A DNA stretch of 64,000 bases from Nocardioides sp. ChNu-153 (GTDB lineage Bacteria > Actinomycetota > Actinomycetes > Propionibacteriales > Nocardioidaceae), in the NCBI RefSeq assembly GCF_030466625.1, contig NZ_JADEVT010000011.1:1-64000 (forward strand), given 5' to 3'. The notes under the pieces were generated by a model. It was not told the DNA's origin, searched no databases, and was given only the letters and a program-made list of their open reading frames with translations. Shown one piece after another: positions 5,681-32,289 of the stretch; within the stretch, counting starts at the first letter, position 1, and each line of letters opens with the position of its first letter. The translations under genes and the position numbers were made by a program.

Positions 5681-7033
5681 TCAGCCCCCGACGACGTCGA
5701 GCACGTCGATGGCGAGGACGAGGAGCGGCAGGAGCGCGACGAGGGCGAGCGTCTCGGCGACGTCGCCGAGACGGCCGCGGCGCAGGGACGGAGTGGACGG
5801 CACCAGGGTCGTGGCGAGCACGACCCCGCCCGCCGCGGCGAGGACGACGGCGGTGGTGGGCCGCCAGTCGGGGTGGATCACGAGCACCGCGGCGGCCGTG
5901 ACGAGCAGGCCGACGATGCCGGAGGCCAGCCCGACGAAGACCTCGAGGCCCGTGCGGTACTGCCGCGTGCGCAGCATGAGGACGAGGCAGGACAGCACCG
6001 CCACGAGCGTGCCGAACAGCCCGAGCGACACCTCGAACGGGATCGCGACCACGACGAGCAGGCCCACCGAGGCCGAGACGCCGACGAGGATCTCGTGGGC
6101 CGTGCGGGCGTCGGCGAGCACGCGGTCGGCGTCGATCTCGTCGGGGTCGTTCGTGATGTCCTCGACGGTGACGACCTGGTCGACCCGGGTGCTCGTGGCG
6201 CTGAGCGCCAGCCACGGGAAGACGCTGCCGGCGATGACGACGAAGGTGGTGACGACGGTCAGCACGACGGCCGCGTCGAGGTCGGTGACGTCGACGAACC
6301 AGCCGCCGACGGCGAGCAGCGCGCCCACGAGCACCGGCGGCGCGAGCAGGGGGCGCCCGTCGTCGATGCCGATGAGCACGGCGAGCGCCACGGCGAGCAC
6401 GCCCACCCCGACGTACGCCGCTCCCGGCCCCGTCAGCGTGCCGCCCTCACCGAGGAGCGCGCCGGCGACGCCGCCGAAGACCGACCCGACCAGCCCGAGC
6501 ACGACCGCCGCCTGGCGCTCGCGCTGCACGCGGGAGAGCACGACCGCGCCGGCCGCGAGCACGACGGCGACCACGGCCGCCCCCACCCCCGCCAGCAGGT
6601 CGTCGGTCTGCAGGAGCAGCGACCAGGCGCCGACGAGCAGGAGGAGGGCGGCTGCCCCCAGGGCGGTACGACGGCCCGCCTCCGGCTGCCACGGCTTGAG
6701 CTCGCGCTCCACCACGTCGGTCATCGCCTCGACGATGTCGTCGTAGACCCGCGGGGGCTCCTCGTCGACGCCGGCGCTGACGGTGAGGAGGGTGCCGTCC
6801 TCGACGCCCTGGATGGTGAGACCGGCGTCGGCGGCCAGCTGGCGACCGTCCTGCGTGACGACCTTGTACCCGCCGTACACGGTCGCGGCGTCGAGCAGGC
6901 CGACGCTGCGCGCCAGCTCCGGCACGAGCTCCGCGACCGGGACGGCGGCGGGGAGGACGAGGTCCACCCGTCGGCGTCCGGACGCCACGGTCACCCGGAC
7001 CAGTCCCGAGGCACCGGTCTGCAACTGGCTCAT
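5681..7033 (-). CDS. eccD: Type VII secretion integral membrane protein EccD
   Basis: 450 aa. The N-terminal 90 or so residues form the ubiquitin-like cytosolic domain (VRVTVASGRRRVDLVLPAAVP...), then about eleven hydrophobic segments from residue 125 onward. The ATG at 7033 has a strong upstream GAGAGGGGGAGA and is preferred over the longer frame starting at 7093. First gene of eccD-eccB-mycP. A perfect hairpin (7109-7152) separates it from the upstream substrate genes, so it probably has its own promoter or receives read-through. Confidence 0.93.
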   Translation of the reverse strand: MSQLQTGASGLVRVTVASGRRRVDLVLPAAVPVAELVPELARSVGLLDAATVYGGYKVVTQDGRQLAADAGLTIQGVEDGTLLTVSAGVDEEPPRVYDDIVEAMTDVVERELKPWQPEAGRRTALGAAALLLLVGAWSLLLQTDDLLAGVGAAVVAVVLAAGAVVLSRVQRERQAAVVLGLVGSVFGGVAGALLGEGGTLTGPGAAYVGVGVLAVALAVLIGIDDGRPLLAPPVLVGALLAVGGWFVDVTDLDAAVVLTVVTTFVVIAGSVFPWLALSATSTRVDQVVTVEDITNDPDEIDADRVLADARTAHEILVGVSASVGLLVVVAIPFEVSLGLFGTLVAVLSCLVLMLRTRQYRTGLEVFVGLASGIVGLLVTAAAVLVIHPDWRPTTAVVLAAAGGVVLATTLVPSTPSLRRGRLGDVAETLALVALLPLLVLAIDVLDVVGG

Positions 7034-9336: not shown

Positions 9337-9648
9337 TCAGCCGAGGCGGCTGAAGCTGGAGGAGAAGGTGTCGGCCTGCGACGAGTCCGTCGAGGTCGTG
9401 TCGCGCTCGGTGTCGAGCAGCGAGCGCTCGAAGTCGTTGAGCGCGTCGTTGATCGTGCGCTGCTTCTCCTGCCACGCCACGTGCAGGCGGTGGAAGGCGG
9501 CGGCACCCTGGCCGCCCCAGCGGGCGCCGATCCCCTGGATCTGGCCCTCGAGGGTGCGGCACTTCTGGTCGATCTCGACCTTGGCGTCGGCCACCATCTG
9601 CGCGGCGTTGGAGAGGGTTCCCTCTCCCATCTGCATGTTGTCAGCCAT
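9337..9648 (-). CDS. WXG100 family protein
   Basis: 103 aa from the ATG at 9648, with AAGGGAAAGAG just upstream. It has two helices with the turn W44-G-G46 (ARWGGQGAAAF), a long second helix, then a Ser/Thr/Asp-rich tail with no YxxxD motif. First gene of the minus-strand substrate operon. It probably forms a heterodimer with the 98-aa WXG100 protein downstream and is exported through the EccC/EccB/EccD channel. Confidence 0.93.
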   Translation of the reverse strand: MADNMQMGEGTLSNAAQMVADAKVEIDQKCRTLEGQIQGIGARWGGQGAAAFHRLHVAWQEKQRTINDALNDFERSLLDTERDTTSTDSSQADTFSSSFSRLG

Positions 9649-9786
9649 GCTCTTTCCCTTCTTCCCCCGGTAGCGGCGAGCAGGCCGCCCGAGAACGTCT
9701 CGTGGATGTTGTCGTGAGCCGGCTGACGTCCCGATCACCCGGCGCGAGGGGCTGTGTACCCGGGTGGTAGAGGGGCGTAAACACCC

Positions 9787-11148
9787 TCAGCTGACGATTT
9801 CCCAGATCCGTCGGAAGAGGCCCACGGTCACCACGAACGCGGGCACGGCGAACGCCCCCGTGAGGGCCTCGGCGACCTCGGCCCGGCGCGACCACCACAC
9901 CGACCGCCAACCGCGGCCCAGTGCGACCGCGACCGGCACGAGCGCGGCGCCCAGCACGAGCGCGGCGACCCCGAGGCGACCGGACCAACCCTGGTCGGCG
10001 ACCGTGCCGACCAGGACGCACGCCAGGCACCACAGGCCGGCGGAGCGCAGCAGGAGCCGGGCGGCGACGTGGCGGTAGCTGCGGGCGACGAGCAGGTGGG
10101 TGGCCCCGACCAGCGCGACGAGCAGCGGCGCCCCGACGCGGTCCAGCGGCAGCGTGGTGGTCGCCAGCACGAGGGGGGCCGCCACGACGGTGGTGGCCAG
10201 CACGGCCACGCAGGCGGCGGTGACGACCCGGGCGCCCCGGGCCACCACGGCCTCGACGGCGCTGCGGCGGATCACCGTGCGCGAGCGCCGGCCGCCCGCG
10301 CGGTCGCGCGCCGACCAGGCCGAGACCGCCAGCCGCTCGATGTCGATGAGCGCCTGGTCGGGCACGTCGACGGCGGACCCGGGGACGAAGCGCCCGGCGA
10401 AGACGGTGAGGAGCAGGAGGGTCGCCCAGGCGACGCGCTCGTGCCAGCCGAGCACGGCCACGACGCCCGCGACGACGAAGACGACGATGCCGGCGACGAC
10501 CCACACCCGCAGGCCCTCGTCCTCCTCCTCGGTGAGGGCGCGGCCCACGGCGGCGGTGACGGCCGCCGCCAGCGCGGCCACGCCGAGCACCATGGGCAGC
10601 CGCGCGCTCGCGGTGTCGGCGACGACCACCAGGGCGGCCGCCGCCCCGAAGGCCGGCGCGGCGAGCGCCCGCTGGCGGGCCGCCCCGCCCAGCGGGAGGA
10701 CGCCGAGCACGGCGCAGCCGAGGAGGACGCCCCCGACGAGCTGCTCGTCGGCGGCGCCGGTCAGCGCGACGCAGACGGCCGCGAGCAGGGCTGCGACGGC
10801 GGCCAGCACGAGGGCGGCCGCGGTCACGACCGGGCCCCGGGGACCACGGTCGGCGCGGTCCGCCTCCGCGGCCTGCGCGGGCGGCGCCGGTGGTGCCTCG
10901 TCGGCCACCACGACCAGGCCGCCGGTGCGCACCCCGAGGTCCCCGAGGGCGGTGGCGGGCGGCAGGGCGCGGCCGCGTCCGTCGTACAGGCGCCGGGAGG
11001 CGGGGAGACCGGTCTGCTTCGCGTACTCCCGCAGGACGTCGGCCGCGGAGGCGCCGTCGGGGACCAGCAGGTCGAGGACGCCGGCCTCGCCGTGCACGCT
11101 CAGGGCGAGCGTGCCCACCGGCGCCGCACCCGCCGTGCTCTGGCTCAT
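9787..11148 (-). CDS. Second EccD-like membrane protein with ubiquitin-like N-terminus
   Basis: 453 aa from an ATG. Residues 10-85 (VGTLALSVHGEAGVLDLLVP... TGGLVVVADEA) look like a YukD/EccD ubiquitin fold. A charged Ala/Pro linker follows, then about ten hydrophobic segments to the C-terminus (...FVVTVGLFRRIWEIVS). The architecture parallels eccD at 5681-7033, but the sequence is quite different. It is encoded divergently from eccC. It could be the second protomer of an EccD dimer or a paralogue taking another role, for instance that of the missing EccE. Confidence 0.8.
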   Translation of the reverse strand: MSQSTAGAAPVGTLALSVHGEAGVLDLLVPDGASAADVLREYAKQTGLPASRRLYDGRGRALPPATALGDLGVRTGGLVVVADEAPPAPPAQAAEADRADRGPRGPVVTAAALVLAAVAALLAAVCVALTGAADEQLVGGVLLGCAVLGVLPLGGAARQRALAAPAFGAAAALVVVADTASARLPMVLGVAALAAAVTAAVGRALTEEEDEGLRVWVVAGIVVFVVAGVVAVLGWHERVAWATLLLLTVFAGRFVPGSAVDVPDQALIDIERLAVSAWSARDRAGGRRSRTVIRRSAVEAVVARGARVVTAACVAVLATTVVAAPLVLATTTLPLDRVGAPLLVALVGATHLLVARSYRHVAARLLLRSAGLWCLACVLVGTVADQGWSGRLGVAALVLGAALVPVAVALGRGWRSVWWSRRAEVAEALTGAFAVPAFVVTVGLFRRIWEIVS

Positions 11149-11293
11149 CGACCCGTCCCCCTCGTGCCCCCGGAGCCGCGGGCCGCGGGGCCCGGGGCTG
11201 TGCCGCCGGTCAGGGTAGTCCCTGCCGGTCGGCGGCACCTATCATCGCTCGCACCGCGGTGGAGCAGCCGGGGCCAGCACGAGGGGGAGCTCT

Positions 11294-14200
11294 TTGAGCA
11301 CGACGCTGCGCAGCAGCCACCGCATCGACGCACCCGAGGTGCCCACCGGGCAGATCGTCCTCCAACCCCCGCCGCAGCTCGCGGAGCACGAGGGCGCCGG
11401 CGGCGTCCTGATGAACGCCATCCCGATGCTCGGCAGCATCGGCTCGATCGTCGTCATCGCCTCGCTGAGCAGCCAGGGCGGCAGCACCGGCGGGCGCAGC
11501 ATGCTGGCGGCGGGCATGTTCCTCTTCGCCACCATCGGGTTCATCGGCGTGCAGATCGACCGGCAGCGCAAGCAGCGCAACCAGCAGGTCACGGGGTCGC
11601 GCACGGAGTACCTGCGCTACCTGGCCGGGGTCCGCAAGGCCGCCCGCGACTCCGCCGACCGCCAGCGGCGCGCCCTGACCTGGCACCACCCGGAGCCCGC
11701 GGCCCTGCCGGCCGTCGCCGAGGACCGCACCCGGCTGTGGGAGCGCTCCTCCTCCGACCCCCACTTCCTCCAGGTCCGCTGGGGCAGCTGCGCGCAGCCG
11801 CTCTCCGTCGAGCTGGTGCCGCCGGAGAGCGCACCGATCGACCAGGTCGACCCCGCCGCGGCCTCGGCCCTGCACCGCCTGCTCGTCGTCCACCGCATCC
11901 AGCCCGACCTGCCGGCCTCGGTCGACCTGCGGGCCTTCGACCGCGTCGAGGTCTGCGGCCCCGAGGAGCAGGCGCGCTCGCTGGCCCGTGCGGTGATCAC
12001 CAGCGCCGTCGCCTTCCACAACCCCGACCAGCTCGTGGTCGCCGTGCTCAGCTCGGACGACCACCTCGAGCACTGGGACTGGCTCAAGTGGCTCCCCCAC
12101 GCGCAGAGCGCGCAGCGCGCCGACGCGGTGGGCCCCATGCGGATGGTCTCGACCTCCATCGACGACCTGGCCACCCTGCTGCCGCCGGACCTGTCCGAGC
12201 GCCCGCGCTTCGGCGCCGACGAGCGCCCCGCCACCCCCCACGTGCTCCTCGTCGTCGACGGCGGCGCCCTGCCGCCGGGCAACCACGTCATCCCGCCGGA
12301 CGGCCTCCACGGCGTCACGGTGCTCGACCTGCCCGAGCAGTGGGAGGAGCTCGAGGACCCGACCCGCCTGCGGCTGGAGATCGTGGGCCTCGACGGCCGC
12401 GGCCGCCCGCGCGTCGAGGCGCTGCGGATGCGCACCGACACCGTGCAGGGCACCGGCGACCAGTGCTCGCTGGCGACGGCCGAGGCGATGGCGCGCCGGC
12501 TCACCCCGCTGCACACCGTGACCGCCGGTGACACGGGCGAGGGCGTCAACCCCGCCGAGATGGCCGGGCCCGCCGACTTCATGGAGCTGCTGGGCCTCGG
12601 CGACGTCCACGCGTACGACGCGACCACCGCCTGGCGGCCCCGGCCCGCCCGCGACCGCCTGCGGGTGCCCATCGGCATCGGCGACGGCGGCATGGTCCAC
12701 CTCGACATCAAGGAGTCCGCCCAGCAGGGCATGGGCCCCCACGGCCTGGTGATCGGCGCGACGGGCTCGGGCAAGTCGGAGTTCCTCCGCACCCTCGTGC
12801 TCGGCCTCGCGATGACGCACTCGTCGGAGCAGCTCAACATGGTGCTCGTCGACTTCAAGGGCGGCGCCACGTTCGCCGGCATGTCCCAGATGCCCCACGT
12901 CTCGGCGGTCATCACCAACCTCAGCCAGGAGCTGACGCTGGTCGACCGCATGCAGGACGCGCTGTCGGGCGAGATGGTGCGCCGCCAGGAGCTGCTGCGC
13001 GAGGCCGGCAACTACGCCTCGATCCGCGACTACGAGAAGGCCCGCGCGGCCGGCGAGGACCTCGCCCCGCTCCCCTCGCTCTTCCTCGTCGTCGACGAGT
13101 TCTCCGAGATGCTGACCGCCAAGCCGGAGTTCATCGACCTCTTCGTCGCCATCGGCCGCCTCGGCCGCTCGCTCGGCCTGCACCTGCTGCTCGCCTCGCA
13201 GCGCCTGGAGGAGGGACGCCTGCGGGGCCTGGAGTCGCACCTGTCCTACCGCGTCGGCCTGCGCACCTTCTCGGCCGGCGAGTCCCGGGCGGTCCTCGGC
13301 GTGCCCGACGCGTACGAGCTGCCCGCCGTACCGGGTCTGGGCTACCTCAAGCCCGACCAGTCCACGCTGCTGAAGTTCAAGGCGGCGTACGTCTCGGGCC
13401 CCCCGGCCACCAGCAGCCGCTCGCAGGTGCGCCGCGACGAGGGCGGCAACGTGCGCGGCATCCTGCCGTACACGATCTCCGAGGTGCAGACCCTCGACCC
13501 GGTCGAGGAGGAGGCCCCCGCCGAGGCTCCGCGCCCCACCGCGCACCAGGGCGAGCAGCCCTCCCTGCTCGACGTCGCGGTCGGCCGCATGGTCGGTCGC
13601 GGACCGGCCGCCCACCAGGTCTGGCTGCCCCCGCTCGACGTGCCCGACACGCTCGACCAGCTGATGCCCGACCTCACGACGACGCCCGAGCTGGGGCTGG
13701 TGTCGCCGCGCTGGCGCCAGCTGGGCGGGCTCACCGTCCCCCTCGGCACGGTGGACCGGCCCCGCGAGCAGCGCCGCGACACCTTGACCATCAACATGGC
13801 GGGCGCCGGCGGCCACGTCGCCGTCGTGGGCGGTCCGCGCAGCGGCAAGAGCACGCTGCTGCGCTCCATCGTCACGAGCACGGCGTTGACGACCACCCCG
13901 CTGGAGTCGCAGTTCTTCGTGCTCGACTTCGGCGGCGGCACCTTCGCGCCGCTGGCCCGCCTCCCCCACGTCAGCGGGGTCGGCACCCGTTCGGAGCCCG
14001 ACGTCGTGCGGCGCATCATCGCCGAGATCCGCGGCATCGTGGACCGGCGCGAGGCCTACTTCCGCTCCCACGGCATCGACTCGATCGAGACCTACCGCAG
14101 CCGGCGTCGCGAGGGTCGCGCCGACGACGGGTACGGCGACGTCTACCTCGTCGTCGACGGCTGGAGCACCCTGCGCTCCGACTTCGACGACCTCGAGATG

Positions 14201-26417: not shown

Positions 26418-26684
26418 TCAGGCGTGGGTCTTGCGACGGCCCATGATGCCCTCGACGAAGCCGACCAGCACGACGGCGGCGATGATCGCCACGATGGCGC
26501 CGATGATGTTGAGCTCGCCGAAGTCACCCGTGCCGAGCAGCGTCGCGACGACGCCGCCGATCAGCGAGCCGATGACACCCAGCACGAGCGTGCCGACGAG
26601 GCCGAGGTTCTGGCGACCCGGCTTGATGAGGCGCGCGACGACGCCGACGAAGAGACCGAACACGATGAAACCGATGATTCCCAT
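26418..26684 (-). CDS. GlsB/YeaQ/YmgE family small membrane protein
   Basis: 88 aa with three Gly-rich membrane segments (MGIIGFIVFGLFVGVVARLI, LGLVGTLVLGVIGSLIGGVVATLLG, IGAIVAIIAAVVLVGFVEGI) and the KPG turn between the first two, as in transglycosylase-associated/stress membrane proteins. The ATG at 26684 is chosen over an upstream frame start at 26744 because the family begins MGII. Confidence 0.93.
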   Translation of the reverse strand: MGIIGFIVFGLFVGVVARLIKPGRQNLGLVGTLVLGVIGSLIGGVVATLLGTGDFGELNIIGAIVAIIAAVVLVGFVEGIMGRRKTHA

Positions 26685-26842
26685 GGGACACCAGTACCCA
26701 CCCGGCCGCTCCCCGTGCGAATCGGCGCACGTCGCGCAGCCCACACCCCGGGTACGTCGAGCCGAACTCGCCGGGTCGTCGCTCGCGTGCCCGGCAGCAC
26801 CCGATTCGGAACGCCGGGCGCCCGTCGGCTAATGTCTCCCGC

Positions 26843-26932
26843 GGTGGCGTGTCCGAGCGGCCTAAGGAGAACGCCTCGAAAGCGTTTGTGGGTGCAAGCC
26901 CACCGAGGGTTCAAATCCCTCCGCCACCGCCA
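26843..26932 (+). tRNA. tRNA-Ser (anticodon CGA)
   Basis: The acceptor GGTGGCG (26843-26849) pairs with CGCCACC (26922-26928); discriminator G and encoded CCA follow. The anticodon stem AACGC/GCGTT encloses CTCGAAA, giving CGA. There is a long variable arm, and the T-arm contains GGTTCAAATCC. It is followed by a strong terminator and by the left repeat of the insert described below. Confidence 0.96.
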
Positions 26933-26942
26933 TACGTCCGGG

Positions 26943-26968
26943 AGCCCGGGCCCCACGGGGCCCGGGCT
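26943..26968 (+). terminator. Terminator of tRNA-Ser(CGA)
   Basis: AGCCCGGGCCCC and GGGGCCCGGGCT form a 12-bp perfect stem around AC, followed by TCTTG. It starts 11 nt after the tRNA CCA end. A second, slightly degenerate copy without any tRNA is found at 29796-29821. Confidence 0.85.
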
Positions 26969-27023
26969 TCTTGCATCTCCGCCCACCCGTCGGCGCGACG
27001 CCACGCGAACCGCATCATGGTCC

Positions 27024-27039
27024 TGTGACCCCGGTCACG
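27024..27039 (+). promoter_or_regulatory. CRP-type palindrome inside R1 (orphan copy)
   Basis: TGTGACCCCGGTCACG is identical to the copy upstream of the GAF regulator at 29878-29893, but here it lies over 330 bp from the next start codon. Probably the result of the duplication that made R1 and R2. Confidence 0.45.
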
Positions 27040-27055
27040 GGCCGCCGCGCGCTCC

Positions 27056-27359
27056 GGCGAGCGATCGTGACACCGTGGGCCACCCCAGGGAACCGAAGGG
27101 GCGCATCCGTTTCGAGTCACGGACCATGGTCTGACCGCAGGTCGGCCCGGCTGACGACGCCGCGCTCCCCGCCACGCCGCGCACCGAACCCAACCGGTGA
27201 TGCGTTCCCCGTTCGACCCTCGAGAGCAGAGGTGCGGATGGTCCCGGGCGACGACCACCCGCGCAGTGGAGATTCCGCGCGACATCTGCGGCGTTCTCCG
27301 AACAAGGTCGGCGCTGCCTCTTACTCTCGGCATGTCCGGGCGAGCGAGGGGGTAGCGGT
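27056..27359. other. Non-coding stretch between R1 and the insert gene
   Basis: About 300 bp with no convincing coding frame or RNA. GC starts high and falls towards the gene. The AGGGGG at 27346-27352 is the ribosome-binding site of the next gene; TTACTCT near 27320 could be part of its promoter. Nothing else seen. Confidence 0.5.
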
Positions 27360-29504
27360 GTGGCCGCGACATTAAGTGGCACTAGGTCGTCACTGGGAAT
27401 TTCAACGGAGGACGTGAGTTCCTACCGTTCGTACCTAACGTTCGACCCTCGTCCCGACGCTGTCGACCTGGCCTTACAGCAGATTGCCGCCTGGCTCCGC
27501 GAGAAGAGCTACGGGGAGCCAGACCTCCAAGTTTCGCAATTGTTGAGGGTTTCAAACTCCGCAGAACTCGTGGTTGCCCACCACGAAGCCAAGCGTGTGA
27601 GCGATTTCCGCATTCGACTCACCGAGACCGAACGCAACGGGACGCAGTGGCTTACCTCAGTAGCCATGCACTCGCCGGCCCGAGGCACTGGGTGGCTGTC
27701 CATTCGCAGCGGCCACACCGGCGGCAAACAGGCCGAGCGACCTAAAGTGGCGAAGTACCTCATCGAGGTTCTGGAACTGCGGGATGGCGACTACCCCGTC
27801 TCTGCTGGCGCACAGATCGTTCGTCCCGACGACGTTGAGGACCTGCTCGAGGCCGTATGCGACCTCAACCGGAACGGATTGCTATTCGTCGCCGCCACCG
27901 ACAAGTCGCAAGCCGACATGCTGCCCGCTTTCGCGAAGCGGGCAGAGACGTGGGCCCGCCGCATTCACGGCATCGCTCAGTTCGTTGTGCTCGACCCGGA
28001 AGCCAGCACGGTCTTCAACGAGGGCGTTGGCCCGACCCACGCAGCGATACCCTGGACGGTCCGCACCTACGCCCCAGGCGTCGACCCCGCTTGGGAACCT
28101 GACGCACGCCGCCACCGCGTCCTCGGTACGCGACGACTGGCTGACGAGACTGATCAAGCCATTGCCGGGATCATCACCAGAGCGGCCCGCAAACACTCGG
28201 CTGGCCACAAGTTGCCCGACGCCGCCCGGACAGTCATAAAGGGATTGAACCGGGTAGAAGACCGGCTTCTCTTGGACGCACTTTTCTCTCCAGGGTCGCC
28301 CACTGCTCAATTACTTTCCGACGCGAGCGAGGGCCTCGCGGTCGCTGCGGACAAGTCGACTGGAACCGATCTCGCCCCACGGGAAGCCGTTGCGGAGACA
28401 GGAGCAGTCGCAGAGACGCTCGCCTCGGAGGCAGCCCAATTGCTCGCTCACGGGCCTGCAACGAACGGGGCCTCCATCGAAGTCGATACCGAGACTTTCG
28501 AAGCGGACTACTCGAGGGAACCCGATGACTCGAATATCACGACACCTCGCGACCCCCGTGCCCTCAACGGCATCTCAGCAAGCACCGCCCACGCGGCAAA
28601 TGATGGCGAAACCAGATCAGTCGACTCCGAAGGTGACATAGCTGCTGTCGCCGCCGAATACCTTTCGATCATTGAACTCGTAAAGCAAACCCTTGGCGTT
28701 GACGACCTCACACCCCAGGCGCTCGAGCAAGTGGCCATGTCGGCAAGCCGGGCCTCGGACCAGGCGGCGGCTCGCGAACAGATGGCTGAACGAATCAGCT
28801 CGGAGTTGGCCGAGCGCCAAGGACGGATAGAGGCTCTCGAAGAAGAGGTGGAGGCGTGGCGGGAAACCGCCGAGGAGGCGCTCCTAGAGCAGGGCAGCGC
28901 TGAGGAGGATCGGCGCGCCATCCAGGACGAGGTGCTACGACTGCGCCGGTTCTTGCTCGAGCAAGGTCGCCATACAGAGGCACTCAGCCCGACCCCGACC
29001 TCCGCCTCGACCAGTGCGCCGAGAAACTTCGAAGAGCTTCTAGACCGGCTCGGCGAGTTCGAGCAACACGGCGTCGTTTTCACAGGCGACCGGCGACGGA
29101 CCATAGGACTTGACGACAACGACACTGTCGGCAACCTCGTGGGCGCGGCATGGGAGTACCTACTGGTCTTGGCCGACTACGTACGGTCGAAAATGTTGGG
29201 TCACTTCGACGGCAACATGAAGAGCTACCTACTCCACACTCCAGCCGGCTACCGGCCCCTTCCCAAGAGCCGCTTTGGCGAGAAGGAGAGCAGGTCCACC
29301 CTCAACCAGTGGGGCGCCGACCGAGTTTTTCCTGTGCCGCCTGAGGTAGCGCCGACGGGGGAGATCCTGATGGAGGCGCACTTCAAGCTGCCCCGATGCG
29401 GCATGGTCACTCCACGTATCCATTACTACGACAACGCTCACGCCGACGGCAGGGTCTACGTCGGCTATATCGGTCCGCATCTTCGAACCAAGGCAACAAA
29501 CTGA
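27360..29504 (+). CDS. Large orphan protein of unknown function carried by the tRNA-Ser insert
   Basis: 714 aa from a GTG with GAGGGGG 5-6 nt upstream. Not recognised. An alpha/beta N-terminal domain covers about 1-290, and an acidic Ala/Thr-rich linker about 330-430. Then comes a strong coiled coil (about 462-540, ERISSELAERQGRIEALEEE and onward), and a C-terminal globular domain (about 555-714) ends with GRVYVGYIGPHL. No signal peptide, membrane helix, P-loop or nuclease motif is evident. GC is visibly lower than in all neighbours. Three TTA leucine codons occur (residues 5, 39 and 318), rare in such genomes. Both point to recent transfer. A single large cargo gene beside a tRNA is suggestive of a host-conflict (defence) gene, but this is speculation. 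Confidence 0.85.
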   Translation: MAATLSGTRSSLGISTEDVSSYRSYLTFDPRPDAVDLALQQIAAWLREKSYGEPDLQVSQLLRVSNSAELVVAHHEAKRVSDFRIRLTETERNGTQWLTSVAMHSPARGTGWLSIRSGHTGGKQAERPKVAKYLIEVLELRDGDYPVSAGAQIVRPDDVEDLLEAVCDLNRNGLLFVAATDKSQADMLPAFAKRAETWARRIHGIAQFVVLDPEASTVFNEGVGPTHAAIPWTVRTYAPGVDPAWEPDARRHRVLGTRRLADETDQAIAGIITRAARKHSAGHKLPDAARTVIKGLNRVEDRLLLDALFSPGSPTAQLLSDASEGLAVAADKSTGTDLAPREAVAETGAVAETLASEAAQLLAHGPATNGASIEVDTETFEADYSREPDDSNITTPRDPRALNGISASTAHAANDGETRSVDSEGDIAAVAAEYLSIIELVKQTLGVDDLTPQALEQVAMSASRASDQAAAREQMAERISSELAERQGRIEALEEEVEAWRETAEEALLEQGSAEEDRRAIQDEVLRLRRFLLEQGRHTEALSPTPTSASTSAPRNFEELLDRLGEFEQHGVVFTGDRRRTIGLDDNDTVGNLVGAAWEYLLVLADYVRSKMLGHFDGNMKSYLLHTPAGYRPLPKSRFGEKESRSTLNQWGADRVFPVPPEVAPTGEILMEAHFKLPRCGMVTPRIHYYDNAHADGRVYVGYIGPHLRTKATN

Positions 29505-29777
29505 TGGGCGGGCGTACGCCACGACCGCTGATCGTTGGACGGGACGGCCACCCGACGACGGGTGGCTAAACAAGGCTTCCTGCCCCCTGCCATCAGGACG
29601 CCCAAGCGGCCCAGGAACAAACCAGTTCGACGGTAAGCGTCCGCTATTCCGCGCACGGCCCGGCCGAGACCCAAGCTCGACAGCCTTCCCGTGTCGAAGG
29701 AGCGGTCCGTTCAATCCCGGCTAACCGTCACAGAACTCGGTCGTCTGCGGCGGCGTACCCTGAAGTCGAGCGCGCTT
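29505..29777. other. Non-coding stretch between the insert gene and R2
   Basis: About 270 bp, GC between that of the insert gene and that of the host genome. No convincing ORF, RNA or integrase remnant is visible. Confidence 0.5.
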
Positions 29778-29795
29778 ACCGCCATACCTCCCGGG

Positions 29796-29821
29796 AGCCC
29801 GGGCCCCACGGGGTCCGGGCT
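29796..29821 (+). terminator. Orphan copy of the tRNA terminator in R2
   Basis: Same 12-bp stem as at 26943-26968 with one change (T at 29814) that gives a G-T pair. No RNA gene precedes it; it may now end transcription of the insert gene. Confidence 0.6.
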
Positions 29822-29877
29822 TCCGGCAACTCCGCCTCACCCGTCGACGCGGCGCCGAGCCAGGAGCATCATGGGTC

Positions 29878-29893
29878 TGTGACCCCGGTCACG
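29878..29893 (+). promoter_or_regulatory. CRP-type palindrome upstream of the GAF regulator
   Basis: TGTGACCCCGGTCACG matches TGTGA-N6-TCACA except for the last base. It lies 72 bp before the chosen regulator start. A similar perfect site precedes the aldehyde dehydrogenase gene (32618-32633). Confidence 0.5.
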
Positions 29894-29965
29894 AGCCGCC
29901 GCGCGCTCGCGCCGGTCGTGGGCAACGGCGCCCCCGGGGTCCACGGACGGACGGGAGAGCGACGC

Positions 29966-31210
29966 GTGGGCATGACGAGACACCTCCCGCCACGGCGCGA
30001 CGGCGGGATGCGGTCGGCGGTGGTGGACTCCTGGCACCGCTCCGCCTCGGCGGGCGTGCGGCCCGACGACGCCACGGCGCCGATCACGCTGCCGGAGGAC
30101 GCGCTGCGGGACCAGCGCGAGGCCCACCCGCTCGCCCGCGTGTTCCCCCTGCTCGACGACGTGCTCGGCCACGCCGCGCGCGACTGCGGCGCGGTCATGG
30201 CGGTCTCGGACGCCGACGGGCAGCTGCTGTGGGTATGCGGCACCCCGACGACGCTGCGCAGGGCCGAGGCCATCGGGTTCGTCGAGGGGTCGAACTGGGA
30301 CGAGCGGCTCGCCGGCACCAACGCCCCCGGTCTCGCCCTCGCGCTCGACCAGCCCGTCAGCATCGTGCGCGACGAGCACTTCCGCTCCGCCGTGCAGGGC
30401 TGGAGCTGCGGCGCCGCCCCCATCCACGACCCCGGCACGCACGCGCTGCTCGGGGTCCTGGACATCACCGGCGGCGACCAGATCGTCGTACCCCAGACCA
30501 TGGCGATGATCCGCGCTGCGGCCCGCATGGCCGAGCTCGAGCTGGCCCGGGACCTGCTGACCCGGCAGGCGCCGGCCCCCGCCTCGACCGCGCCCGGTGC
30601 CCACCTCGTGCTCGAGGGGCTCGGGCGCACCGACGCGCTCCTCACCGTCGAGGGCGCGGGCGGCGCCCCCCGGACCGTGCGGCTCTCCCCCCGGCACAGC
30701 GAGATCCTGCTGCTCCTCGCCTCGGCGCCGCAGGGACTGTCGGGCGACGAGCTGGCCGTGCTGCTCTACGCCGACGACGGGAGCGGCGGCAGCGGGTCCT
30801 CGACGCTGCGGGCGGAGCTCAACCGCCTGCGCCACCTGCTGGGCGGCGACCTGCTGGCGTCGCGCCCGTACCGCCTCACCGCCCAGGTCACCGGCGACTG
30901 GCTCACCGTCGAGGCCCTGCTCGCGACGGGCGACCTGCGGGCCGCCATGCGCGCGTACGGCGGACCCGTGCTGCCCCGCTCGACCGCCCCGGGCGTGACC
31001 CGGCTGCGGGAGAACCTCGGGTCGCAGCTGCGGGGGGCGCTGCTGCGCAGCCGCGAGGCCGACCTGATGTCGCAGTGGACGCGGTCGACGTGGGGCGCCG
31101 ACGACTACGAGATGTGGCAGGCCCAGCGCCGCGCCGTCGGGGCGACGTCGCCGATGCTGCCGCTCATCGACGGCCAGCTCGCGCGGCTCGACCGAGAGCT
31201 GGGGGTCTGA
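29966..31210 (+). CDS. GAF domain transcriptional regulator of the aldehyde dehydrogenase locus
   Basis: 414 aa. The start at the GTG at 29966 is chosen for the GGGAG at 29953-29957; an in-frame GTG at 29879 lies in repeat R2 and in the palindrome. It begins with VVDSWHRSASAGVRPD, the entry motif of AcoR-type activators. A GAF domain follows at about 50-190 (GAVMAVSDADGQLLWVCG...LLGVLDITGG). The C-terminal half has a winged-helix-like part (RTVRLSPRHSEILLLLASAPQGLSGDELAVLLY...STLRAELNRLRHLLG) instead of the sigma-54 AAA domain. Such proteins sit next to acetaldehyde dehydrogenase genes in actinobacteria and probably sense an aldehyde or alcohol. Confidence 0.88.
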   Translation: MGMTRHLPPRRDGGMRSAVVDSWHRSASAGVRPDDATAPITLPEDALRDQREAHPLARVFPLLDDVLGHAARDCGAVMAVSDADGQLLWVCGTPTTLRRAEAIGFVEGSNWDERLAGTNAPGLALALDQPVSIVRDEHFRSAVQGWSCGAAPIHDPGTHALLGVLDITGGDQIVVPQTMAMIRAAARMAELELARDLLTRQAPAPASTAPGAHLVLEGLGRTDALLTVEGAGGAPRTVRLSPRHSEILLLLASAPQGLSGDELAVLLYADDGSGGSGSSTLRAELNRLRHLLGGDLLASRPYRLTAQVTGDWLTVEALLATGDLRAAMRAYGGPVLPRSTAPGVTRLRENLGSQLRGALLRSREADLMSQWTRSTWGADDYEMWQAQRRAVGATSPMLPLIDGQLARLDRELGV

Positions 31211-31428: not shown

Positions 31429-32289
31429 ATGGCCCCCTCACGCCGTCCCCGCCTCCCCCGCGTCGCCCTGCCCGCCCGCCTCCGCTCGCTGCGCCCCACG
31501 CCGTCGCTCATCGTCGCCTCCCTCGCCCTCGCGGTCGCCGCGGGTGGCGGCACGGCGTACGCCGCCAGCCAGATCGGCGGGGAGAACATCCGCAACGGCT
31601 CCATCACGGGGTACGACGTGCGGGACGGCTCGCTCTACCGCGCCGACTTCGCGAAGAACCAGATCCCGGCCGGCCCGCGCGGTGCTACGGGCGCGACCGG
31701 TCCGCGCGGCGCGACGGGCGCCCCCGGTGCCCGCGGGCCCCAGGGCGCCCCCGGCACGCCGGGCGCGCCTGGCGCTCCGGGCCAGCAGGGACCCCAGGGC
31801 GAGCAGGGCGAGCAGGGCCCCGCCGGGCCGGGCGTCCGCTGGTTCCTCATCGACGCCTCGGGCGCGATCGTCGACCAGTCGGGCGGCTTCACGGTCGCCG
31901 CGGCGTACCCCGAGCTGGCCAACACCGCCCCGGCGGGCGCGCCCTCGAACGCGCTGCGCGCGGCCGGCAACGTCTACGTGAACGCGGGCGAGGACCTCAC
32001 CGGTTCGGGCATCGTGGCGACCATCGCGCTGCAGAACCAGGTCGACCAGAACGGCGACGGCGTGACCAACGGCCGGGCGGGCGCGGCCGACGCCAACCCC
32101 GAGTTCTCCGGCGAGATCACCGCGACCACCTGCGGCCTGGCCGGGATCGTGGCCTGCGCTCCGACGGGCACGAACAACACGAACCACCTCGTCGTCAGCC
32201 CGCGCCTCAGCGACGGCTCGGTCACGACGTCGACGAACCGCAAGCGCTTCTACGTGATCGTCACCGACGGCGGGATCACCATCGGCTGA
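31429..32289 (+). CDS. Secreted collagen-like repeat protein
   Basis: 286 aa, with AAGGA 7 nt before the ATG. A long basic N-terminus leads into a membrane or signal segment (about 28-45, LIVASLALAVAAGGGTAYAA). Then comes a short domain (QIGGENIRNGSITGYDVRDGSLYRADFAKNQI) that in actinobacteria often precedes collagen repeats. Next are about 18 Gly-X-Y triplets (residues 82-136, GATGPRGATGAPGARGPQG...), and finally a C-terminal domain of about 150 residues rich in beta strands. No sorting motif is visible. Likely surface-associated or secreted; function unknown. Confidence 0.88.
   Translation: MAPSRRPRLPRVALPARLRSLRPTPSLIVASLALAVAAGGGTAYAASQIGGENIRNGSITGYDVRDGSLYRADFAKNQIPAGPRGATGATGPRGATGAPGARGPQGAPGTPGAPGAPGQQGPQGEQGEQGPAGPGVRWFLIDASGAIVDQSGGFTVAAAYPELANTAPAGAPSNALRAAGNVYVNAGEDLTGSGIVATIALQNQVDQNGDGVTNGRAGAADANPEFSGEITATTCGLAGIVACAPTGTNNTNHLVVSPRLSDGSVTTSTNRKRFYVIVTDGGITIG

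Follow-up and report, generated by a model that had tools for sequence, protein, structure and literature searches.

A foreign single-gene insert between diverged direct repeats beside a reversed tRNA-Ser(CGA) gene in Nocardioides sp. ChNu-153

The window, i.e. the whole stretch of 64 000 nucleotides that we analysed (NZ_JADEVT010000011.1), contains an intact tRNA-Ser(CGA) gene that is separated from the gene of a GAF-domain transcriptional regulator by foreign DNA lying between two imperfect direct repeats, R1 and R2 (Table 1). The regulator gene is followed by a collagen-repeat gene and then by an aldehyde dehydrogenase gene.

Table 1. Features of the locus (positions are those of the window)
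Feature	Position	Strand	Remarks
Transglycosylase-associated-type small membrane protein gene	26418..26744	-	left neighbour; Pfam match weak, under cut-off; syntenic with G058
Conserved segment upstream of tRNA	26801..26842	+	turned round along with tRNA; opposite orientation to neighbours
tRNA-Ser(CGA), intact	26843..26932	+	ARAGORN, Rfam; orientation opposite to relatives
Repeat R1	26926-27054	+	7-nt tRNA tail, terminator-like hairpin, fragment of regulator leader
Terminator-like hairpin of R1	26940..26971	+	z -4.7
Palindrome in R1	27024..27039		TGTGACCCCGGTCACG; in fragment of regulator leader
Foreign insert	27055..29777		~2.7 kb; X 27055-27359, gene, Y 29505-29777
Cargo gene, 714 codons	27360..29504	+	start possibly 27414; encodes an N-terminal part, a coiled coil and a conserved C-terminal domain; candidate defence protein, HEC-07/NsnC-like
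C-terminal domain of cargo protein	29064..29498	+	~residues 569-713; RelE/ParE/YoeB-like predicted fold
Repeat R2	29778-29908	+	7-nt tRNA tail, terminator-like hairpin, regulator leader
Terminator-like hairpin of R2	29791..29826	+	z -5.0; G-U pair preserves pairing
Palindrome in R2	29878..29893		in native regulator leader
GAF-domain transcriptional regulator	29972..31210	+	start codon putative

The two repeats start with the final seven bases of the tRNA gene (ACCGCCA), and their alignment has 131 columns, of which 113 are identical, 16 are mismatches and two are single-base gaps, in line with the agreement of about 85% that an earlier note on this DNA had estimated by eye. That note also had the repeats begin at the end of the tRNA, hold a terminator stem and a palindrome and reach the leader of the GAF regulator, as we find: the hairpins are strong in both copies, the TGTGA-N6-TCAC palindrome is present in both (and conserved in the regulator leaders of relatives), and the right side of R2 continues into the leader, where the match of the relative G058 to the R2 region begins at 29863. 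R1 and R2 hold the same terminator-to-leader junction. A chance likeness in GC-rich DNA, which by the earlier note would have refuted its reading, is ruled out by a BLAST E-value of 1e-36 (search within the own genome) and a local alignment score of 168 (the maximum over 2971 random window segments is 38), and the similarity is genuine. On its left the repeat reaches 7 nt into the 3' end of the tRNA, a zone that integrases usually target; this mild coincidence counts against the explanation we prefer below.

The GC content of the insert is 0.70 in X, 0.62 in the gene and 0.66 in Y, compared with 0.74 for the whole window. It has one intact frame, whose GC3 is 0.71 (0.98 and 0.99 in two neighbour genes), so the ~2.7 kb insert with one lower-GC gene of the earlier note is borne out. 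No Pfam family was found in this frame or in seven further frames (115-208 codons) within or crossing the insert; these frames therefore encode no transposase or integrase, as the earlier note had also concluded. Among 215 genomes of the genus, G000 (the own genome) included, no second copy of the insert was found and, beyond weak short matches, only a 137-base stretch of the homologous gene in G002 resembles it; searches of plasmids and phages found no similar DNA. Within its outer 80 bases, the insert has no inverted match longer than 7 bp between the two ends, and a duplication of 131 bp far exceeds the usual target duplication of a transposon or IS element. The end of R1 has an 8-bp inverted match with the insert end (seen in 0.13% of random 10-bp pairs, and spotted post hoc), which also sits uneasily with our best explanation.

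The cargo protein matches two PADLOC models, each covered in part: HEC-07 (E-value 2.2e-16, residues 67-283) and NsnC (E-value 3.9e-11, residues 641-711). Each model (PDLC04161 for HEC-07 and PDLC03912 for NsnC) is matched by 10 out of 12 members of the cargo family. According to passages in PMC12111858 and PMC12988326, HEC stands for Hma-embedded candidate (Payne et al.), and such candidates were discovered through their location in Hma or other defence loci, a location that is no requirement; the cargo gene differs in that it apparently stands alone and not within an Hma system. We found no report of HEC-07 itself being tested, and literature searches with the names NsnC and HEC-07 gave no relevant result. 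Among the seven window neighbours scanned with PADLOC there is one weak match (an AAA protein to PDC-M37B, E-value 1.2e-7), and a JetC (Wadjet) gene lies ~4 kb from the homologue in G002 only (eight proteins in three genomes scanned).

The conserved C-terminal domain of the cargo protein was modelled with a pLDDT of 83.7 and a pTM of 0.82. Foldseek gave no PDB match with an E-value below 1 for this model, and fold searches gave nothing at E ≤0.001 in PDB or viral libraries; VIA-align against the 478 chains ranked highest by Foldseek gave a best Z of 6.2, below the guide value of 8 (rmsd 2.9, 89 aligned residues, target 91). The neighbours are consistent: 34 out of the 42 entries listed are, by title or name, toxins of the RelE/ParE/YoeB/HigB kind. 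The predicted resemblance to RelE/ParE/YoeB RNase toxins is a lead; unlike those toxins, this domain is fused to a large N-terminal part and is not paired with a small antitoxin. The full-length model has a mean pLDDT of 47, which gives no structural reading of the N-terminal part, and a profile search against solved structures gave weak matches, mainly to coiled-coil stretches. Judged from its family and predicted fold, the cargo protein most likely acts as an effector of the RNase type, which the rest of the protein would restrain and which would serve against phages.

The cargo gene is sporadic, with homologues (frames set by tblastn) in 4/146 relatives of the genus and 10/340 of the family. 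No repeats comparable to R1 and R2 flank any of 13 homologue stretches (11 from our numbered genomes, two from plasmids), where direct repeats do not exceed 36 bp, and only the stretch of G147 has a tRNA-Ser (GGA), ~2 kb off.

In 28/28 relatives of the genus with both genes at most 2.5 kb apart, the tRNA-Ser(CGA) gene is divergent from the GAF regulator gene, a count that leaves out five pairs more than 2.5 kb apart (G130, G085, G104, G022 and G124; G130 and G104 are not divergent) and any pair on separate contigs, ~30 kb or more apart (e.g. G132 and G034) or with a tRNA that is not among the matches listed. The tRNA-terminator-regulator order was seen only in G000; this order is therefore derived and arose when the tRNA unit was reversed. 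G058 aligns with both sides of the locus (C3, 71-26684 and 30004-52226) in one orientation, in blocks of 73-91% identity (one of 65%), and within this alignment the tRNA alone is reversed; the alignment starts in the segment upstream of the tRNA, at 26804 with G058 and at 26801 with G106. G058 keeps the old tRNA orientation and has neither the cargo gene nor the repeat. Between left gene and tRNA it carries 11.4 kb that is absent from this locus in G000, and the first 9771 bases of this segment have only 37 scattered matches in G000 (the longest with 75% identity over ~700 bases and 66% over ~1.1 kb). No inverted repeats longer than 11 bp were found around the flipped unit. The earlier note had an insertion split an ancestral tRNA-terminator-regulator order and duplicate the junction: the duplicated junction stands, but we reject that order as the ancestral one in view of the divergent relatives and the orientation in G058. 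The same collinearity, over more than 20 kb on each side, bears on an assembly artefact, which a draft in 29 contigs might suggest; R1 and R2 differ at 18 columns and are thus distinguishable in assembly, and we consider an artefact hardly credible.

The earlier note had also proposed looking for strains with one repeat and no insert. Relatives without gene and repeat exist, but an exact empty site with a single repeat did not turn up: among the matches listed from a BLAST search of the 215 genus genomes with R2 plus the regulator, none entered the terminator part of R2, and the exact tRNA-to-palindrome pattern occurs in G000 only among 391 genomes of the order. The exact pattern has seven matches in genome_contigs (where the own and near genomes may be missing), none titled as this genus.

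We place slightly more belief than doubt in a two-step history within the lineage of G000 itself. In the first step, the tRNA-Ser(CGA) unit (upstream segment, tRNA and terminator) was turned round from its ancestral orientation away from the regulator, and the DNA once 3' of it was lost or was never present, giving a novel junction in which the tRNA tail and the terminator are followed by the regulator leader. In the second, foreign DNA of lower GC content, ~2.7 kb long and with a single HEC-07/NsnC-like gene, would have entered this junction, and 131 bp of the junction would have been doubled, one copy on each side. The same junction in R1 and R2 indicates that it formed once and was duplicated around the insert afterwards; as no genome with a single junction minus the insert was found, we infer the order of the steps. 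The insert ends carry no clear recombinase signature, from which we infer that the event was non-specific, perhaps strand switching during break repair or single-crossover integration of a circle bearing the same stretch. Homology-facilitated illegitimate recombination, with one homologous and one illegitimate end, is a known route for inserting non-homologous DNA, but the abstract of PMC3240628 describes no two-sided duplication, unlike this locus. The arrangement should be harmless to the host genes, since the left copy preserves the tRNA 3' end and terminator and the right copy the terminator and leader ahead of the regulator.

R1 and R2 mismatch at 16 of 129 ungapped columns (12%), less than the fourfold-site divergence from G058 (18% in the dehydrogenase gene, 43% in the regulator gene), so the duplication is old and, if the repeats have evolved roughly neutrally, younger than the split from G058. 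At 15 R1/R2 differences in an outgroup alignment, the outgroups agree with R2 at eight and with R1 at four (three undecided), or at five and three (three undecided) with four edge columns removed, and with matches split in this way both copies have changed. Two bases are common to R1 and R2 and different in all four outgroups (by eye on the alignment), thin evidence of a common lineage and as such a weak point of our best explanation. Alternatively, one repeat copy may have been imported: a sister species that shares the flipped junction would have supplied a circle or a fragment, this would have recombined here by homology, and the 12% would be divergence between species. The mismatch matches the size seen between species at this locus, and derived changes are more numerous in R1 than in R2; against this stand the two shared bases, thin as they are, and the lack of any other genome with the junction in the genus search (among the matches listed), the order or genome_contigs, and we think such an import rather improbable.

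The main rival, poorly supported and in our view unlikely, although less so than an import, is that the insert is what remains of a tRNA-integrating element (an AICE, a prophage or a satellite) that lost its integrase and other genes and kept one cargo gene, as in CIME remnants, R1 and R2 being attL and attR. As in such remnants and other tRNA genomic islands, the insert lies 3' of an intact tRNA gene between direct repeats, with no recombinase found, and the left copy, which begins in the tRNA 3' end, rebuilds the tRNA. Cargo family members occur at 11 viral-contig loci and, by protein, on seven actinomycete plasmid records (a phage protein search gave no cargo homologue), and a distant homologue in G000 has an integrase ~1 kb away, in a stretch of low GC (C12) that ends in a partial tRNA 3' half. 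Most tyrosine-recombinase AICEs are located in tRNA 3' ends, according to the part of PMC3218068 that deals with them. But the tRNA part of R2 is just 7 nt, not a substantial 3' part, whereas the partial tRNA at C12 begins in the anticodon region (by eye), and the repeats, 12% diverged, run across the terminator into the regulator leader. No integrase was found in the insert or, among the matches listed for 18 relatives (draft contigs), within 30 kb of tRNA-Ser(CGA), the nearest being 37 kb away; nor is more than 15 bp of the tRNA 3' end repeated in any of 28 stretches checked. The earlier note had argued that the repeats are too long for att sites, an argument that is not safe, as some actinomycete elements have long att identities; the short tRNA part, the included leader and the distance to any integrase listed are better ones. 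A non-autonomous unit mobilised in trans, for which G000 might offer seven PF00589 matches at six places, is very improbable given the single copy of the insert in the genus genomes and the 13 homologue stretches without such repeats.

The locus resembles a single, old gene capture and not a novel type of mobile element. There is little chance that it represents a recombinase-less accessory unit, with its own tRNA tail, terminator and regulator leader, that re-enters the junction by short diverged homology; if it did, defence-type genes could be swapped behind a tRNA gene without an integrase while tRNA and regulator still function. Foreign cargo and repeats beside a tRNA gene thus do not necessarily imply an integrase, and an empty site should be assumed only once the order of the genes next to a repeat has been polarised by comparison with relatives. 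The cargo itself would be a single-gene, possibly (by prediction) RNase-armed addition to a family of candidate defence proteins that has received little study.

The two direct repeats around the foreign insert, R1 and R2, agree at 113 of 131 columns in a pairwise alignment (16 mismatches, 2 gaps), and the alignment score is 168, whereas random segments taken from the window, 2971 in all, scored no higher than 38, so their likeness, as the earlier note had it, goes beyond that of random GC-rich DNA. Both repeats open with the 7-base 3' end of the intact tRNA-Ser(CGA), and both contain a strong hairpin (R1 -32.6, R2 -37.2 kcal/mol) and the palindrome TGTGACCCCGGTCACG; at its right side R2 reaches the GAF-domain regulator gene. 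The 2723 bp between them consist of 305 bp, the 714-codon cargo gene and 273 bp, with GC contents of 70, 62 and 66%, respectively, versus 74% across the window. The cargo gene has a GC3 of 0.71, versus 0.98 and 0.99 in two neighbours, and no integrase was found within the insert, in line with the single lower-GC gene and the lack of a recombinase described previously. An 8-bp inverted match (GCGCGCTC / GAGCGCGC) links the ends of R1 and of the insert; it was noticed after the fact, and 0.13% of random 10-bp pairs equal it. A short part of the insert has weak matches in several genus genomes (E about 3e-5 to 1e-3), which probably reflect GC-rich chance.

Features of the repeat locus and of related loci
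Feature	Position	Basis or content
Blocks aligned with G058 in a single orientation	71-26684 and 30004-52226	
Inverted tRNA-Ser(CGA) unit	26801-26932	28/28 relatives with the near arrangement have the other orientation
Stretch aligned with G058 in reverse	26804-26932	
tRNA-Ser(CGA)	26843-26932	intact
R1	26926-27054	
Insert	27055-29777	
8-bp inverted match	27047-27054 and 29768-29775	end of R1 and end of insert
Weak genus matches	27133-27200	
Cargo gene (+)	27360-29504	
R2	29778-29908	
Collagen-repeat gene	31429-32289	
L123 element (G000:C12:41001-61000)	about 9361-9753 and 10754-12095	HEC-07-like gene and PF00589 integrase
L164 protein (viral contig)	5803-6183	

The genus comparison covered the tRNA region in 147 genomes, the regulator region in 215 and 17 stretches of 19-20 kb. 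Usually the tRNA-Ser(CGA) and the GAF regulator sit on opposite strands and point away from each other: this holds in 28 of the 28 relatives where the listed rows place both within 2.5 kb, a set that leaves out five pairs further apart (two of them not divergent), along with pairs absent from the listing, split between contigs or separated by too great a distance. The old orientation is clearest in G058, where blocks on either side align in one direction and the tRNA stretch alone is reversed. The tRNA unit has therefore been turned round in the lineage of our genome (G000), a small, lineage-specific inversion next to the conserved gene for an aldehyde dehydrogenase, and the succession of tRNA tail, terminator and regulator leader, which had been taken for the ancestral order, is a new junction. 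Of the order's 391 genomes, only G000 matched its exact pattern; no genus-titled record of the genome_contigs database did, a collection that may omit near genomes. In G058, 11.4 kb absent from G000 separate the left gene from the tRNA; on the tRNA side opposite the regulator gene content varies among the 14 stretches listed, with a transporter-like gene common (by eye) to G058, G106, G150 and G214. The same four carry the collagen-repeat gene between the regulator and aldehyde dehydrogenase genes, and the other 13 stretches do not.

The hairpin and the piece of leader that meet in R1 are also those that meet in R2, so most simply the junction formed once and was duplicated afterwards. The leader portions of R1 and R2 can be aligned with the corresponding leaders of these four relatives, and two bases common to R1 and R2 are lacking in all four (by eye), thin evidence for a common lineage. 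These bases, and the failure to find another genome with the junction, speak only mildly against import of one repeat from a sister species. At 15 R1/R2 differences in the leader alignment the relatives agree with R2 at eight and R1 at four, with three undecided (five, three and three once four edge columns, whose homology is doubtful, are dropped). Change has occurred in both copies, perhaps to a greater extent in R1, which is what continued service of R2 to the regulator would predict; four clustered R1 changes may be a single event. The repeats mismatch at 16 of 129 positions. Compared with G058, the fourfold-degenerate sites of the regulator (n = 135) show 43% divergence and those of the dehydrogenase (n = 189) 18%; under roughly neutral evolution of the repeats, the duplication would be old yet would postdate the split from G058. 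Such an age would still be compatible with the low GC of the cargo gene, because few sites would have changed since.

The cargo protein matches no Pfam family. Two defence-candidate models of PADLOC match it over part of their length, HEC-07 at E 2.2e-16 and NsnC at E 3.9e-11; each of the two matches 10 of 12 family members. HEC is short for Hma-embedded candidate; several HECs are described as active in passages of PMC12111858 and PMC12988326, and a literature search on HEC-07 itself came up empty. Structure prediction for the C-terminal domain (about residues 569-713) gave a model with pLDDT 83.7 and pTM 0.82; the full-length protein gave no usable one. Foldseek returned no significant match to the domain model, and in VIA-align 34 of the 42 listed entries are RelE, ParE, YoeB or HigB-like toxins by title or name. 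The best match has Z 6.2 (rmsd 2.9 over 89 residues); since Z is under 8, the resemblance of the modelled domain to RelE/ParE-type RNase toxins is only a lead, which invariant His, Arg and Gly positions close to the C-terminus fit. The product is probably a coiled-coil protein that ends in an effector of RNase type. A short viral-contig protein (L164) has little beyond this domain, suggesting that it can stand alone.

The gene is sporadic: 4 of 146 relatives in the genus and 10 of 340 in the family have a match, the closest being that in G002 (40% identity). Seven plasmid records (Streptomyces, Nocardiopsis, Kitasatospora) match the protein, phage records do not, and viral contigs hold 11 loci with family members (from 18 pattern matches). 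A JetC-type (Wadjet) gene lies ~4 kb from the G002 homologue; seven other homologue-neighbour proteins from three genomes have no PADLOC match, and the seven window neighbours gave one weak AAA match. Comparable flanking repeats were found in none of 13 homologue stretches.

Four routes could give such repeats: a site-specific integrase, import, movement in trans and non-specific insertion. An integrase would explain why the repeats start inside the tRNA 3' end, but the repeated part of the tRNA is just 7 nt long, the terminator and regulator leader are included in the repeat, the insert yielded no such gene, and the nearest integrase among the matches listed is 37 kb from this tRNA (18 relatives, several draft assemblies). 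The one point in favour of movement in trans, by an integrase elsewhere in the genome, is that G000 contains integrases. One lies on contig 12, ~1 kb from a second, distant HEC-07-like gene, in DNA of low GC (64-66%) that stops at the 3' half of a tRNA; by eye this half begins in the anticodon region, with a CAT anticodon. That locus resembles an ordinary tRNA-integrated element whose load includes a member of the cargo gene's family, unlike the R1/R2 locus with its short tRNA repeat and no integrase found. With modest confidence we rate highest a non-specific insertion of foreign DNA, following the flip, that would have duplicated the junction; it fits everything and predicts nothing special. 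The R1/R2 case would then be an instructive though fairly ordinary gene acquisition.
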